Source: a virus
Strand: one strand, 5' to 3'
IMG/VR virus record: IMGVR_UViG_3300025789_000119
Location: 1-28,111 of that record
Length of the DNA stretch: 28,111 nt
The notes under the pieces were generated by a model. That model was not told the origin of the DNA. It saw only the letters and a list, made by a program, of their open reading frames with translations, and did not search any database. Position numbers and translations under genes: made by a program. Each line of letters begins with the position of its first letter. Within the stretch, counting starts at the first letter, position 1. Positions 8,070 to 14,948 of this stretch are shown here, one piece after another.

Positions 8070-8507
8070 ATGTCTTGGTACTATCTAAATCAAATTGTAG
8101 AGCAACTGCCCGAGGATTGTATTGGGTTTGTTTATCTTATAACAAACACATCAACTGGGCGCAAGTACATAGGCAAAAAACTAGCAAAATTTTCTAAAAC
8201 TACCTACAAAGTAGTAAAATTAAAAAACGGCACTAAGAAAAAAAAGAAAATCCGCAGTAAAATTGACAGCGATTGGCAGGACTATTATGGTTCCAGCGAT
8301 GAATTACTCAAAGATATTGCGCAGTTAGGTCAAGAAAACTTTCACCGAGAGATATTATTTTATTGTAAGTCCAAGGCAGAAACGTCATATATAGAGGCAC
8401 GAGAACAATTTACACGCAGAGTATTAGAATCTGACGAATATTACAACGGTCAGATATCAGTTCGTGTCCACGGCTCCCACATCAAAGGCAAACAAATTAA
8501 CGGTTAA
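8070..8507 (+). CDS. GIY-YIG nuclease-like protein (145 aa)
   Basis: Residues 19-37 contain both halves of a GIY-YIG motif: GFVYLI (19-24) and KYIGKK (32-37). After a Lys-rich insertion (about 53-64) come DWQDYYGSS, FHREILFYC and an AETSYIEAREQ helix that could supply the catalytic glutamate. The size matches a lone catalytic domain, like stand-alone Seg-type or repair-type phage nucleases, without an obvious added DNA-binding domain. The ATG sits 3 bases after the preceding stop, has no good ribosome binding site, and is preceded by a perfect palindrome. Substrate and role (homing, restriction of competing phage, repair) cannot be told from sequence. It lies next to a structured gene-free region. 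Confidence 0.7.
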   Translation: MSWYYLNQIVEQLPEDCIGFVYLITNTSTGRKYIGKKLAKFSKTTYKVVKLKNGTKKKKKIRSKIDSDWQDYYGSSDELLKDIAQLGQENFHREILFYCKSKAETSYIEAREQFTRRVLESDEYYNGQISVRVHGSHIKGKQING

Positions 8508-8990: not shown

Positions 8991-10361
8991 ATGAAAGTAT
9001 ATGAAATAATCGCTGAATCTAGTCAGTTAGCTGAGATAAGTTTTGGAGGAGTTGCAGATCGAGTTTCTGGCTGGTTTGGTCGTGACGAAGCTGGTATGGC
9101 CAAACTGTCATTAAAAGCATTCTTAGAAAAAACCAGTAATGATGTTGCTCAACAAGCTGTTGCTAAAGGTGTAACTCCTTCAAAAATTATTGCTGATAAA
9201 GTGGCCAATATAGCCAGTGACGAAGCAAGAATTCAACAAGAAATTGAACGTGTGGCCAACAAAAACGGCACCACAATGACCAAAGAACAGGCTATAGATT
9301 ATATCAATGCTAGAGCTAGAAAGAAAAAACAACCGCCATTAGCAACTGAAAAAGATGTGTTGCTTGATGAAAAATGGCAAGATCCTAGCTTTCAAGATCA
9401 AATCAAAAAAGCAGCCAACAAAAGATTAAGAACCAACAATTATGGTCCTAATGCCACTAATGTTGGTGCCGGTACAGGTGGCAAAGTTGCCGCTGGAGCC
9501 GCTGGAGTAGGAGTAGTTGGCGGAGTTGTTGAATGGGCCACTAGTATGGGTGCTGTCGAAGCAGCTTTGACGGCGGCCAACATCTATGAATTTTACAAAG
9601 CCTACAGCGAATTTGCTTCGCGCATGCAATCAGCCAGCGAGCACAGAAAAGATAATTCATGGACATCTGCACAATATCAAGAAACTCTTAATCAAGAAAC
9701 TATGATTTTGATTTCCACATGGGCTGAATTGGTCATAGCTCCTGCTATTATTAAAAAGCTATTTAATTTTGTTGGCAACACATTTACTTTAACAGCCAGC
9801 GGACGTATCATCAAATGGATTGCCGGCAAGTTTCCCAAGTTTGCTTCTGCGGTAAACGGTGCAACCAATGTCATGATACGAGACTGGATCAATGAAAATG
9901 ACAATGCCAAATGGCTAGCTGTGCAAATTGGCACTTGGTTAGGATCTGCTGTTCCTGGAATTGCCGAAGCGTTTCAAGCTGTAGGTTCTGCTATCAATCC
10001 TTGGTTCCCAAGTGATCCTAAACCTGGCGACAATACAGCCGCAAGTCCTAACGGAACTACTAACAATGGTCAAGCAGCTGTTAATGCAACATCGACAGAT
10101 GGCGCCGGCGGGCAATATCAAGGTACGTGGCATATTGATCCATTAACTGGAAAAGATGCGCAAGGTCGTCAATTCTATGATAAGAACCCTAACGCTATAC
10201 GCAACTGGGATGTTACTGATTGGGTAACTGGTCCTGATAACAATTTTATTCAGAATCCTAAAAATCCTGTGCAAATATTGTCTAAACCAGTGTGGTGGCA
10301 TGTTGACCCATCATACTTAACTAAAGATCAGTTAAGATTAAAAACGCAAGGCGACGATTAA
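8991..10361 (+). CDS. Unrecognised protein, probably virion-associated (456 aa)
   Basis: The start is supported by AGGGA 9 bases upstream and a late promoter motif just before it. Residues 1-20 (MKVYEIIAESSQLAEISFGG) resemble the short leader peptides seen on many phage structural proteins. Residues 1-150 are charged and helical. Residues about 160-185 are Gly/Ala/Val-rich, and further hydrophobic stretches follow near 240-258 and 305-330, which may be membrane-active or buried helices. The C-terminus is Trp/Asp/Pro-rich (GTWHIDPLTGKDAQG, NWDVTDW, PVWWHVDPSYL). Such a mix could fit an internal or DNA-ejection protein, but that is only a guess. Its stop interlocks with that of the convergent gene in a shared TTAA. 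Confidence 0.75.
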   Translation: MKVYEIIAESSQLAEISFGGVADRVSGWFGRDEAGMAKLSLKAFLEKTSNDVAQQAVAKGVTPSKIIADKVANIASDEARIQQEIERVANKNGTTMTKEQAIDYINARARKKKQPPLATEKDVLLDEKWQDPSFQDQIKKAANKRLRTNNYGPNATNVGAGTGGKVAAGAAGVGVVGGVVEWATSMGAVEAALTAANIYEFYKAYSEFASRMQSASEHRKDNSWTSAQYQETLNQETMILISTWAELVIAPAIIKKLFNFVGNTFTLTASGRIIKWIAGKFPKFASAVNGATNVMIRDWINENDNAKWLAVQIGTWLGSAVPGIAEAFQAVGSAINPWFPSDPKPGDNTAASPNGTTNNGQAAVNATSTDGAGGQYQGTWHIDPLTGKDAQGRQFYDKNPNAIRNWDVTDWVTGPDNNFIQNPKNPVQILSKPVWWHVDPSYLTKDQLRLKTQGDD

Positions 10362-10591
10362 AGCAATGGCATTTGCGATGTCTTAGTGGCTTCAATATTT
10401 TCATTGATAATAGTGTACATGAATTCGCGGTCTTCTGCACTATAAACTGTGAGAAGATCGTTTACCGTAACTCCACCCCGCATGTACCAACTAATTCTAA
10501 ATAAATCTTCTTTAAATCGTTTGGTTTCTTTTTCTAGCCCAATTAGTTTGTCTTGAATCTCGTGAGGAGTCAAACCAATCAGGCTATCTCG
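10358..10591 (-). CDS. Tail assembly chaperone extension ORF, reached by -1 frameshift from gp26
   Basis: This reading frame overlaps the end of gp26 in the -1 frame. The only nearby start is a TTG at 10573 without a ribosome binding site and buried in a predicted RNA stem, so independent initiation looks unlikely. From the slippery site the frame is open through RDSLIG into TPHEIQDKLIG, LFRISWYMRGGVTVNDLL and DREFMYTIINENIEATK, 77 residues in all. A shift would give a gp26 fusion of 349 residues. Small proteins with an ISWYMRGG motif occur beside gp26 in related phages as I recall, and may correspond functionally to gp51. The helical, charged character fits the T domain of tail assembly chaperones that bind the tape measure. 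It ends convergently with the 456-residue gene. Confidence 0.7.
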   Translation of the reverse strand, partial: RDSLIGLTPHEIQDKLIGLEKETKRFKEDLFRISWYMRGGVTVNDLLTVYSAEDREFMYTIINENIEATKTSQMPLL

Positions 10592-10597
10592 AAAAAA
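10535..10597 (-). promoter_or_regulatory. Programmed -1 frameshift signal (slippery site plus stem-loop)
   Basis: On the minus strand, the codons AAT TTT TTC at the end of gp26 contain the heptamer T_TTT_TTC (10597-10591). After the 4-base spacer GAGA comes a stem: 5' arm UAGCCUGAUUGGUUUG (10586-10571), 3' arm CAAACUAAUUGGGCUA (10550-10535), loop of 20 bases. All 16 positions pair, 13 Watson-Crick and 3 G-U. The same three positions would be A-C mismatches in a plus-strand RNA, so the structure favours the gp26 mRNA. The gp26 stop codon TGA (10581-10579) lies inside the 5' arm, as is common for such recoding sites. Confidence 0.75.
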
Positions 10598-11406
10598 TTG
10601 CTTTGATCCAACTCTACAGTTAAATCAACTTCAGTTCCGCAATTGTCACATTTAACATGATAGGGAGGATTATTCATAGATTTTCTGTTTGCTTCAATAT
10701 GATTTTTGATAGCATCATAAATGTTTTTATCACAGTTGTTGAGCCATTCGTAAATAAAACTACTTTCAGTTACAACTTTGTTAGCTATTTCTACACTTTC
10801 TACGCTAGCCTTGTATAAGTCACTTTGAATAATTGCCAGTTCTTTAAACAATTCATTGATCAGTTCTTGTTGACGTGTTCTATCTTCAATTTCGTCTGTT
10901 TGACGTAATTTTTGTTGTAGCCTGAAGTTGCGTAGGTTAAAGTCTGTGCTTTGACGATAGCTCAAAGGCTGTATTTTGATCACTAGATCTTTAAGAACAA
11001 CTTTACTTTCATACTGCAAGTTACTGAAATACTCAATGATTTTACTTAGATCTAGTTCATATTCGTTTTCAGATTTGCATTTATTGCATGTATGAGTTAC
11101 TGTCATATTGTTACCAAATGTTGCAATACGCAACGCAGCAAAAATTACGTTAATATCCATGATGCTGACTTCCCAAGCGTCTTTGATAGAAGGCACACAG
11201 CTTTCGATAACTGCCACTGTGCTTTCACCACTCAGCAGCGCATCTGGAGTCTTGAGCACAATTTCGTCCATGCCAGTCATGCCGTACACTGGTACATTAG
11301 CAGGGTCTCCTTGAAAACTTCCAGGTGCGGAATAAGCTGCCTGACTGGGTAATTTGATGTAGACTTTAGGTTGTCTAAAAAATTGTTGTAAAGGATTAAC
11401 TGCCAT
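10579..11406 (-). CDS. gp26: Baseplate hub/tail assembly protein gp26-like (275 aa)
   Basis: The protein shows the T4 gp26-type baseplate family pattern: VPVYGMTGMDEIVLKTPDAL (39-58), IESCVPSIKDAW and DINVIFAALRIATFGNNM. Two CxxC pairs (C107/C110 and C253/C256) probably bind zinc. In T4, gp26 acts in baseplate hub assembly. Here the last codons carry a slippery heptamer at residues N270-F271-F272 followed by a strong stem, so a fraction of ribosomes should continue into the downstream -1 frame. The normal product ends EIA four codons after the slip. The start ATG follows GGAGA by 5 bases, and a TATAAATA late promoter lies on the minus strand at 11443-11436. The gene is divergent from the probable tape measure. 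Confidence 0.85.
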   Translation of the reverse strand: MAVNPLQQFFRQPKVYIKLPSQAAYSAPGSFQGDPANVPVYGMTGMDEIVLKTPDALLSGESTVAVIESCVPSIKDAWEVSIMDINVIFAALRIATFGNNMTVTHTCNKCKSENEYELDLSKIIEYFSNLQYESKVVLKDLVIKIQPLSYRQSTDFNLRNFRLQQKLRQTDEIEDRTRQQELINELFKELAIIQSDLYKASVESVEIANKVVTESSFIYEWLNNCDKNIYDAIKNHIEANRKSMNNPPYHVKCDNCGTEVDLTVELDQSNFFEIA

Positions 11407-11468: not shown

Positions 11469-14400
11469 ATGGCAGATCCAGAAATCATCAATGCAATCAA
11501 AGAAGGCTTTCAAGCTGTAGCTGGCATGTTGGGCGCAGGTGGCGGCCAAAGCAGTGGTGGAAACAGCGGTGCAGCACCAAAGCCTTCAGGCGACTCTGGT
11601 GTTATCAACAATGCTATGAACGGCATGAAAAAAGTTGGTGAAGAAGCCATACCACTGTATTTAGGTTTTAAACGACTGACCGAAGGAGCCAATCCTGCAT
11701 CAGAAGCACTATTGGGATTTAAAACAGCATTAAGTTCGGTTCATCTTGGACCTCTAGCTGGAGTAGCACAGCAAACTGTAGGATCTATTCTAGATTGGAA
11801 AACACAAATGGACGCCGCCTCCAAAGAAATGGGCATAGGTGGCAATAACATCGGTTTGTTTGTGAAAATGGCCGGTGATGCCGGCGTTACTACAAAACAA
11901 TTTGCAGATATTGTACACAACACTGGAGTGCAATCTGTAGGACTTGGAGCAAATGCACAAAAAGGTGCAGAAGCATTTAGTAAATTAGCTAGCGATGTAA
12001 GACAAAGCCCTATAGGCACTCAGTTGCAAGACTTAGGCATGAGTACTGAAGAGCTAGCATCCGTAACAGCTTTAAGTGCCATTCAAAATCGTAAATCTAA
12101 TATGTCATCGGCTGAAGCTGCTGTTTCAGCACAACAGTTAGCCGTGCAATTAGACGAAACAGCTAGATTAACTGGTGTTAGTCGTGAACAAATGGCTAAA
12201 GAATTAGCTGCAGACGAAAAACGTCCAGAAATTCGTGCGTTAGAAAACTTAATGCAAAAAGAACAAATCGAAGGCTATCAAAAATCTAAAAAAGCAATGG
12301 AGATGTTTGGTCAGCCTATGGTACAATTGACCAGCGAACTAGCATCGGGTAAGTTAAGTAAAGCCGGACAAGCGCAAATGGCTGCACTAGGAGATGCAGG
12401 TAGAGAATATGAAGCGGCATTAAAACAACAAATGGCCGCAAGAAGTCCAGCAGAAAAAGCAGCGGCAGATGCTGCTTTGGAAGTGGCACAAGCACACGTG
12501 GCCGCAAGAATGGCCAGCAAAGAATTTTCATCACAAGCTGTTTATTCAAGCGGTGCAATTGGAGACCAAAGTAAGAAAATGTTAGATGCCAATCAAGGCA
12601 TGGAAAACGTTCAAAAAGCAGCTGCAGAATTCCGTGCTAAAGGCATGAGTGAAAATGATGCATATGTTGCTGCTTTAAAGAAAAATAAAGAAGATGCTGC
12701 AAATTTGCGTCAAGGTAAAGATGAAAAAGGTAAAGATGATCCTGGACAAAACAGCGCAAGACTGTTGAACAAGGCCAACGAAAATGCTGCCACTCAGGCC
12801 GCTGGACTTGCCAACAATTTCAAATTGTTGAATGACGGTATCAAACCCGGTACAAAAATTTATGAAGTTTTTACCAATGCTGTGGGTTATACAGGCAAGG
12901 CACAGAGTACCCAAGAAGCCACTACAGATCAACAAAAAATTGCGAAAGGAGCTGTTGACAGTATTAATAATCAGATACCAGGATCTAAAGCCACACAAGC
13001 AATTCCAGACAAAGATAAAGATGAGACAGGGCGTGTTGCACCTTACAAATCAAGTAGAGATGGCGGAACATTGGCAAAAACCGGAAGCCCAGTTGAACCT
13101 GAAGATGCCATTGTAAAAATTCACAAAGGTGAAACTGTGCTAACACCTGAAGCTACTAAAGGCATGGGCAAGCAATTAAGTGAAGGCAGTAAAGCACCGT
13201 CACCAGCTGAAGTTGCAGAGAATATAAGCTCAGTACCTAGTGCAACAGCCGCTGGACCAGCACCAATGTCAGCTCGCGAAAAAGAAATTACAAAAGATTA
13301 TAGTGATCCTGAAGCAACAGCCGAAGAAATCAAAGGAGCTATTGCTGGTGCACAAAATCAAATTAAATCTTGGTCAAGCGACGTTGCTGAGCAACAAGAT
13401 AAAATTGATCAGCTCAAAGCTATAGGAGCTAAGAGACAGTTAACCAGCGTTGAAGAATTAGATTTAAAAGAAGCTGAACAACAAAAAGCTCGTGCTGAAA
13501 AAAATCTTGCCAGAGAACAAGATACTGTTAAAGTTTTAAGCAATTTAGACGAATATAAAGCTAAACTAGAAACTGAAAATAAACAAAAAACAGTCAAGGC
13601 TAGCGAAGAAGCAGTTAAGATTGCTGAAGATTTAGGAATAAAACAAGTAGAATCTGTAAAAGCCCATGAAGATGAAAAAACCAAAACACTCACTGAAGCT
13701 CAAAAAAATGTGTTGTTTGAAGTAGAAAATTCTCATATGAGTGTTGCTGATAAAATTTCAGGAGCAAACAAGATAGTAGCCAGTGCAACTGAAACATCTT
13801 TAGCATCTGAAAAAGCCGCAGCAACACTGAAGTCTGACATAACTGCCAAAGCCGCAGCAGAGGGTAGGGAATTAACCAATTTAGAAAAAGGCAGAATAGA
13901 ACGCGCCGAGCAAAAAGCAGCAACCGACAAAAAACACCTTGATAATGAAACAAATAGATTAGAAACTTTAAAGAATATTGATGCAATCAAAGCACAAGCT
14001 GAAATTGAAAACAAACAAAAAGTTGTTGAATCTGATAAACAAGCAAGCGAAATATCTGTTGAAGCTAATAAACAAGCAAGCGAAATATCTGGTATTAGTG
14101 CAAAGGAACAAGAAGCTATACAAAAAGAAGCTGTCAGCAAAGCTACAGCAAACGTAAAAGAAACATTAACTATAAACGGCAAAGCTGTTGATCCTAATAG
14201 TCCAGAAGGCAAAGAAGCCATGGGCAAGATACAAGAAGCACAAGCCAAGATGAAAGAAGCCATGGGAGGCATGTTACCCGACATGAGTCAAATGATGGCC
14301 AGCGGCGGCAAATTGACTGTTGACGGAAAAGAAGTTGATCCGAATAGTGTGGCTGGCAAAGACGCCATGAGCAAATTAGACGAAGCTAAATCTACAATGT

Positions 14401-14948
14401 CCAAGTCATTAGGTGGTATGCTGGATATGCCAACCGTCAACCCGCTCAGCAAAGAAGAAGCAATGAAGCAAATTTATTCAGGCGGAGGTACACCATTAAA
14501 TGAGAAAGATAACGGCAGACCAGAAATAAAACCAATTGAAACACTATATTCAAAAGAAGATTTGGCCAAGCGTAGTGCTAGTACCGGTGCTTTAGGAAGT
14601 ATGTTTGCTCCTAAGATTGTAGATCAAAAAGCAGCCGACGCTCAAAAAGCAAAAATAGCCGAAGCTAAAGCCGCTGAAGCTAAAAAGACTTCGGAAGCTA
14701 CACCTAAAAAATCAGATGCAGATAGTAAAAAAGAAGCAGAAGCAAAAAAACGTAACCCAGCCGAACTTAATGAAGGCGACCAAAAAAAAGCCAGTGCTAA
14801 AACGCATGATGCAACCTTAAAAGATCTCAATGACCAGCTAGTACTGTTAAATAAACATATGGTGCAACTAATTAATCACAGTGAGAAATCAGCCGATGCT
14901 AATGCTAAAACAGCTAAAGCCACACAAAAAGCTACAGGCGTAAGATAA
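11469..14948 (+). CDS. Probable tail tape measure protein (1159 aa)
   Basis: The longest gene in the window and almost entirely helical. A Gly-rich N-terminus (20-45) leads to a tail-like region (65-170) with GFKRLTEGANPASEALLGFK and TKQFADIVHNTGVQ. Long Ala/Glu/Lys coiled coils follow. A segment near 535-560 (EDAIVKIHKGETVLTPEATK) resembles the conserved C-proximal motif of tape measures. Internal duplications occur at 655-715 versus 799-859 and at 900-939 versus 949-988. The end is Ala/Lys-rich. The tape measure sets tail length and T4's is gp29 (590 aa); at about 0.15 nm per helical residue this one could span roughly 170 nm. The adjacent frameshifted chaperone supports the call, although it lies on the other strand. 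AGGAAAAA precedes the ATG. Confidence 0.65.
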   Translation: MADPEIINAIKEGFQAVAGMLGAGGGQSSGGNSGAAPKPSGDSGVINNAMNGMKKVGEEAIPLYLGFKRLTEGANPASEALLGFKTALSSVHLGPLAGVAQQTVGSILDWKTQMDAASKEMGIGGNNIGLFVKMAGDAGVTTKQFADIVHNTGVQSVGLGANAQKGAEAFSKLASDVRQSPIGTQLQDLGMSTEELASVTALSAIQNRKSNMSSAEAAVSAQQLAVQLDETARLTGVSREQMAKELAADEKRPEIRALENLMQKEQIEGYQKSKKAMEMFGQPMVQLTSELASGKLSKAGQAQMAALGDAGREYEAALKQQMAARSPAEKAAADAALEVAQAHVAARMASKEFSSQAVYSSGAIGDQSKKMLDANQGMENVQKAAAEFRAKGMSENDAYVAALKKNKEDAANLRQGKDEKGKDDPGQNSARLLNKANENAATQAAGLANNFKLLNDGIKPGTKIYEVFTNAVGYTGKAQSTQEATTDQQKIAKGAVDSINNQIPGSKATQAIPDKDKDETGRVAPYKSSRDGGTLAKTGSPVEPEDAIVKIHKGETVLTPEATKGMGKQLSEGSKAPSPAEVAENISSVPSATAAGPAPMSAREKEITKDYSDPEATAEEIKGAIAGAQNQIKSWSSDVAEQQDKIDQLKAIGAKRQLTSVEELDLKEAEQQKARAEKNLAREQDTVKVLSNLDEYKAKLETENKQKTVKASEEAVKIAEDLGIKQVESVKAHEDEKTKTLTEAQKNVLFEVENSHMSVADKISGANKIVASATETSLASEKAAATLKSDITAKAAAEGRELTNLEKGRIERAEQKAATDKKHLDNETNRLETLKNIDAIKAQAEIENKQKVVESDKQASEISVEANKQASEISGISAKEQEAIQKEAVSKATANVKETLTINGKAVDPNSPEGKEAMGKIQEAQAKMKEAMGGMLPDMSQMMASGGKLTVDGKEVDPNSVAGKDAMSKLDEAKSTMSKSLGGMLDMPTVNPLSKEEAMKQIYSGGGTPLNEKDNGRPEIKPIETLYSKEDLAKRSASTGALGSMFAPKIVDQKAADAQKAKIAEAKAAEAKKTSEATPKKSDADSKKEAEAKKRNPAELNEGDQKKASAKTHDATLKDLNDQLVLLNKHMVQLINHSEKSADANAKTAKATQKATGVR
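13431..14045 (+). repeat. Internal duplication in the tape-measure gene, 61-residue units
   Basis: Residues 655-715 and 799-859 align without gaps. Shared positions include R-x-LT, AEQ, N-x-D, KA and the block ENKQK followed by V two residues later. The offset is 144 residues. The two copies have diverged in DNA, so the duplication is old. Confidence 0.6.
14035..14091 (+). repeat. Short direct repeat in the tape-measure gene
   Basis: A 24-base sequence beginning ATAAACAAGCAAGCGAAAT occurs at 14035-14058 and again at 14068-14091, coding KQASEIS twice with an 11-codon period. The identity at DNA level indicates a recent slippage or duplication event. Confidence 0.75.
14166..14432 (+). repeat. 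Tandem 40-residue module in the tape-measure gene
   Basis: Residues 900-939 (LTINGKAVDPNSPEGKEAMG...) and 949-988 (LTVDGKEVDPNSVAGKDAMS...) are clearly related, both ending near GGML-D. The period is 49 residues. The units look like small folded domains in an otherwise coiled-coil protein. Confidence 0.75.

Follow-up and report, generated by a model that had tools for sequence, protein, structure and literature searches.

The window analysed here, a stretch of 28,111 nucleotides, is T4-related phage DNA from a 28.1-kb IMG/VR virus record that includes a gp20-type portal gene. Its gp26 locus raises the question of how the small open reading frame found downstream in the -1 frame is expressed: as a gene of its own or as the C-terminal part of a longer gp26 product. 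A first-pass annotation had proposed a programmed -1 frameshift of the kind known for tail assembly chaperones. The evidence assembled here makes it very probable that a slippery heptamer and a hairpin at the end of gp26 direct a -1 ribosomal frameshift, the predicted outcome being a short and a long (gp26-gp51 fusion) tail chaperone.

Slippery site, hairpin and reading frames in the window

The gp26 protein of the window matches PF12322 (52.8 bits for a curated cut-off of 24.5, E 5e-14) and phrog_150 (E 1.4e-18). Its gene ends with AAT TTT TTC GAG ATA GCC TGA. The heptamer, 4-base spacer, 16-bp stem and 20-base loop described in the first-pass annotation were all recovered from the sequence and from its folding (Table 1). 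All 16 bp of the stem are paired, and the three pairs that depart from Watson-Crick rules are, as had been claimed, G-U in the minus-strand RNA and A-C on the opposite strand. The hairpin folds at -19.7 kcal/mol (z = -3.3), a value equalled by one of 200 shuffled sequences. Moreover, the heptamer is more than a chance occurrence: the 8,485 codons of the window's genes hold no other in-frame T_TTT_TTC, and among 12 Phe-Phe pairs one uses TTT TTC.

Table 1. Features of the gp26 locus (positions in the window)
Feature	Position	Strand	Basis or remark
gp26, short form (T4 baseplate hub / tail assembly chaperone)	10579..11406	-	275 aa; PF12322 and phrog_150
Slippery heptamer T_TTT_TTC, gp26 frame	10591..10597	-	sequence; identical in 38/38 IMG/VR relatives and eight jumbo isolates
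4-nt spacer GAGA	10587..10590	-	sequence
Stem 5' arm	10571..10586	-	holds the gp26 stop codon and the sole upstream TTG of the -1 frame
20-nt loop	10551..10570	-	fold
Stem 3' arm	10535..10550	-	fold and covariation
gp26 stop codon TGA	10579..10581	-	bypassed in the -1 frame
-1 frame extension	10358..10597	-	79 codons from the slip site, and stop; gp51-like C-terminal domain
TTG, mechanical start of a 71-aa ORF	10571..10573	-	within the 5' arm; missing in many relatives

The -1 frame is open to position 10361, with its stop at 10360-10358 of the minus strand. The predicted fusion has 349 residues (270 + 79), as first calculated, and the extension amounts to 77 residues past the FF common to both frames. 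It was also correctly noted that the only start codon upstream in the -1 frame is a TTG (10573-10571) inside the stem; this codon is probably not used as a start.

According to the mechanism proposed here, gp26 would be the short (G-like) tail assembly chaperone. A fraction of the ribosomes at T_TTT_TTC would be slowed by the hairpin 4 nt downstream, both tRNAs would re-pair one base back (TTT TTC to TTT TTT), and the shifted ribosomes would read past the gp26 stop codon in the -1 frame, completing the 349-residue gp26-gp51 fusion, the long, GT-like form. The shift itself and its rate are what we infer from these signals. By analogy with lambda gpG/gpGT, the short and long forms, at a fixed ratio, may coat the tape measure protein and recruit it. 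Points against frameshifting include the short spacer of 4 nt and the other routes of some distant relatives (a separate gp51 or a TAATG overlap). No Shine-Dalgarno-like stimulator was seen by eye upstream of the site in 24 relatives.

The gp26 protein and the extension were modelled separately with AlphaFold. Mean pLDDT reached 85.5 for gp26 and 88.2 for the extension, which is helical, and was below 50 for the C-terminal residues of short-form gp26, including FF. When the models were compared with viral predicted structures, the named top matches were mostly gp26-type baseplate proteins. Comparing the folds of both models with solved structures yielded no usable match, and a PDB sequence search with the gp26 profile gave chance matches only.

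Several neighbouring genes were also considered. The ORF at 8991-10361 (+), of 456 aa and no clear family, is convergent with the frameshift extension and overlaps it by 4 bases. On the other side, a candidate tape measure gene of 1159 aa (11469-14948, +) is divergent from gp26 and adjoins the portal gene; it has no Pfam or PHROG match, and the RaK2 gene at the equivalent position is annotated as tape-measure-like. Finally, the 145-aa ORF at 8070-8507 (+) matches phrog_447, a family that bears the label NAD synthetase, as well as several families of homing endonucleases. Its product is probably a nuclease of the HNH or endonuclease VII type and the phrog_447 label misleading.

Conservation of the heptamer and of the -1 frame

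A tblastn search with gp26 gave matches in 60 phage records, mostly of 280-490 kb, at 23-31% identity, and the extension was detected by sequence search in Atu_ph07 and Phosso only. All eight isolates whose junctions were read first (Phosso, Atu_ph07, Cassandra, RaK2, XaC1, 121Q, CBB and SCTP-2) carry TTTTTTC in frame, followed by a -1 ORF of 73-79 codons starting with FFR or FFQ. The same heptamer and -1 extension occur in 38/38 close IMG/VR relatives, one of which (L010) has a gp26 100% identical to that of the window. Both features were also found in 87/87 contigs retrieved with cyanophage, RaK2 and phiAS5 queries, 80 of them cyanophage-type; both counts (38 and 87) are inflated by near-identical contigs. 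Once gp26 was clustered at 40% identity, 19 groups were obtained: eight have TTTTTTC only, one TTTTTTC/TTTTTTT, two TTTTTTT, one TTTTTTG and seven none.

The FFR motif across the junction is invariant in 35/35 aligned extensions, and the 0-frame codon 3' of the heptamer varies among relatives (GAG, GAC, GGG, GCC or GTA). This pattern points to protein selection on the -1 frame from the slip site onward. It bears directly on the possibility that the small ORF is an independent gene (a free gp51) expressed by re-initiation or from a weak start, the poly-T and the stem being incidental or regulating that start. Such a gene would find its start in the ATG that overlaps or adjoins the gp26 stop in Phosso, Cygsa01, phiW-14 and K364, in the TTG of the window, and in the cyanophage ATG located 5 nt past the gp26 stop and annotated as the start of gp51. 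However, conservation in the -1 frame extends to the residues of the junction that precede any start. Furthermore, in most of the 38 close relatives the first ATG, GTG or TTG of this frame does not occur before about +98, inside the WYMRGG motif of the extension's conserved core, and therefore a free full-length small protein is impossible there with common start codons. A start is likewise missing before +50 in phiAS5, and where an ATG or TTG exists, it sits in a conserved stem. We thus regard an independent small gene as very unlikely.

In whole records (seven named phages and two relatives of 345-356 kb), each frameshift phage has a single copy of the extension, at the junction. No convincing second gp26 or gp51 copy was detected in these records by a search that missed T4 gp51 itself and is hence not absolute. 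Extra gp26 matches were weak and lie, in RaK2 and phiAS5, on small hypothetical ORFs. No gp26 was found in the region of KVP40 that was examined.

Selection on the hairpin

Covariation was studied in 27 distinct sequences of the window's clade. Among stem cells, 79.9% are paired, compared with 20-54% after a shift of the partner by 1-3 columns, and 10 of the 16 stem pairs show changes on both sides. The covariation score was reached in none of 500 shuffles, which ignore relatedness. The consensus core of the hairpin consists of 9 pairs (GCCTAATTA/TAATTAGGC). Part of the likeness of the two arms is explained by the similar LI(R/G) motif that both encode.

Codon usage within the stem is also restricted. 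At codon 4 the residue is S, R, G or C and the second and third bases are invariably GC; Leu at codon 5 is CTA or CTG only; at codon 19, Arg is always AGG and Gly always GGG. All four CTN codons are in use for Leu at codon 20. Codon choice in the stem thus tracks base pairing. In addition, G-U cells outnumber A-C cells in the stem of the clade (46 vs 13), and therefore the folding strand is the gp26 mRNA strand, in agreement with the initial view that the stem favours the gp26 message. Judging from the aligned sequences, the hairpin of this clade appears to be selected as RNA. The comparison of relatives that had been set beforehand (heptamer, spacer and stem covariation) came out as expected for frameshifting.

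Cyanophages have a different hairpin, of 9 bp and beginning 7 nt past the heptamer, whose 5' arm includes the ATG of the annotated gp51. For 39 distinct junctions from cyanophage-type contigs (L055-L134), 90.3% of the hairpin cells are paired, compared with at most 48% in slid alignments. Covariation is thin (one co-varying pair) because sequence conservation is high. A start buried within the stem thus appears with two distinct hairpins, in the window and in cyanophages.

The joining of the two frames could also result from transcriptional slippage at the six T residues, with no ribosomal slip. A T6-T7 run is indeed present in every heptamer-bearing group. Nevertheless, six bases are a short run for polymerase slippage, and the TTT TTC phase in the gp26 frame together with an RNA hairpin at a fixed downstream distance suit ribosomal slippage, which makes the transcriptional explanation extremely unlikely. 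The hairpin is strong and lies where an ORF ends, but the probability that it terminates or attenuates transcription 3' of gp26 is negligible, given that the -1 frame runs through it as conserved coding sequence; this reading was rejected, with no T tract after the hairpin and no terminator-like site found.

Exceptions among distant relatives

The first-pass annotation had named as adverse evidence any relatives whose small ORF has a good ATG with a ribosome binding site while the slippery site is absent. None exists in the window's clade, whereas distant phages partly correspond to this description: in Cygsa01 and Vibrio K364 the heptamer is absent and the ORFs overlap at TAATG, and gp51 is a separate gene in T4, as in Stupor and Aes508. 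Other exceptions were seen. Salmonella phage S118 (L147) and Kuja (L148), both Ackermannviridae, have no canonical heptamer and a -1 frame open into a gp51-like domain; in S118, this domain is unannotated and there is no early ATG. Stenotrophomonas phage IME-SM1 (L150) has GAC TTT TCG GCT near the usual site, with gp26 then in an unusual frame, which possibly reflects another junction or a sequence error. Another route (re-initiation or a non-canonical slip) would have to operate in Cygsa01, K364, S118, Kuja and IME-SM1.

Relation to T4 gp26 and gp51

T4 gp26 is homologous to that of the window. Its gene ends with GAG TTC TTT GAG TTA CTA TAA, which has TTC TTT and no heptamer. Gene 25 comes next, and gp51 is encoded separately, by a divergent gene. 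In T4, gp51 is an essential hub-assembly protein whose function was given as unknown in a 2010 review (PMC3004832). A profile of gp26 proteins matches gp51 of T4, Stupor and Aes508 (E 4e-5 to 2e-4). An extension profile, built from the window clade, jumbo phages and cyanophages and searched against 433 background ORFs, matches the C-termini of the same three gp51 proteins (E 2e-5 to 3e-4) and, the window's own extension aside, nothing else below E 0.1 among the 433 ORFs. The link between extension and gp51 runs via the family profile because the window extension by itself gives no significant PHROG match. The PHROG 150 match spans positions 13-280 of 282 for T4 gp51, 4-233 for the window gp26 and 241-278 for cyanophage gp51. 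Given these profile matches and ranges, T4 gp51 shows the architecture of the predicted fusion. It consists of a gp26-like part and, at its end, the extension domain, and T4 would differ from the window in making its long form from this separate fused gene in place of the predicted frameshift.

Sullivan et al. (2010) described cyanophage gp51 as reaching about 20% of the usual length, the similarity being C-terminal, and reported that Aeh1 lacks gp51 (PMC3037559). In phiAS5 and related Aeromonas phages (L138-L141, L052), gp26 ends with the heptamer and the extension mostly has no start before +50 in the -1 frame. This may account for the reported lack of gp51 in Aeh1, as phages of the phiAS5 group have the frameshift layout with no start codon early in the extension. 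The chances are evenly balanced that T4-related phages (of the jumbo, cyanophage, rhizobial and phiAS5/Aeh1 types) made the long chaperone ancestrally, and still make it most widely, by frameshifting from gp26 into the gp51 domain, that a hairpin hides the start of the small ORF and thereby leaves the fusion as the main product, and that T4 gp51 arose by duplication of gp26 plus the extension.

Comparison with known frameshift chaperones

If frameshifting occurs as predicted, gp51 can be read as the long form of the tail chaperone. Annotations of many marine and jumbo phages, which overlook the extension, label it hypothetical or list it as a free gp51 of small size, would then be corrected.

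The -1 frameshift tail assembly chaperones of long-tailed phages were reportedly described by Xu, Hendrix and Duda in 2004. In lambda, gpG/gpGT has the same organization: a short chaperone and a minor -1 fusion, a heptamer near the 3' end and a downstream ORF without its own start. The likeness is one of layout; the lambda site is G_GGA_AAG and its proteins belong to the gpG/T family, whereas those of the window are gp26/gp51 (PF12322, phrog_150).

The tail assembly chaperones of T4-like phages were identified by Vladimirov, Gautam and Davidson (2022, Virology 566:9-15), as cited in PMC12846349 and PMC10885494. The first of these papers credits them with -1 slippery sites of the poly-T kind for some members of the T4-like group; the authors of PRFect (PMC10885494) summarise the same study as describing, again for some T4-like phages, a short copy and a fused long copy that are separate. 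According to the description of the citing papers, these are the same genes as gp26/gp51 of the window. The initial remark, that its author was aware of no described equivalent for T4-type gp26 and its neighbour, was hence partly wrong. The literature search, to which the full text of the 2022 study was external and which is accordingly weak on this point, retrieved nothing on jumbo lineages of this kind or on a covarying hairpin.

Phage Adele (Vandenendeviridae/Andersonviridae) likewise has a poly-T -1 site at the end of its chaperone gene, argued from conservation. Unlike the window, it represents other phage families and has a GTTTTT site, and the frameshift section of that paper does not describe hairpin covariation (PMC12846349). 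The frameshift chaperone is therefore already known outside the present lineages, some relatives of T4 included, and is strongly documented here in further ones.
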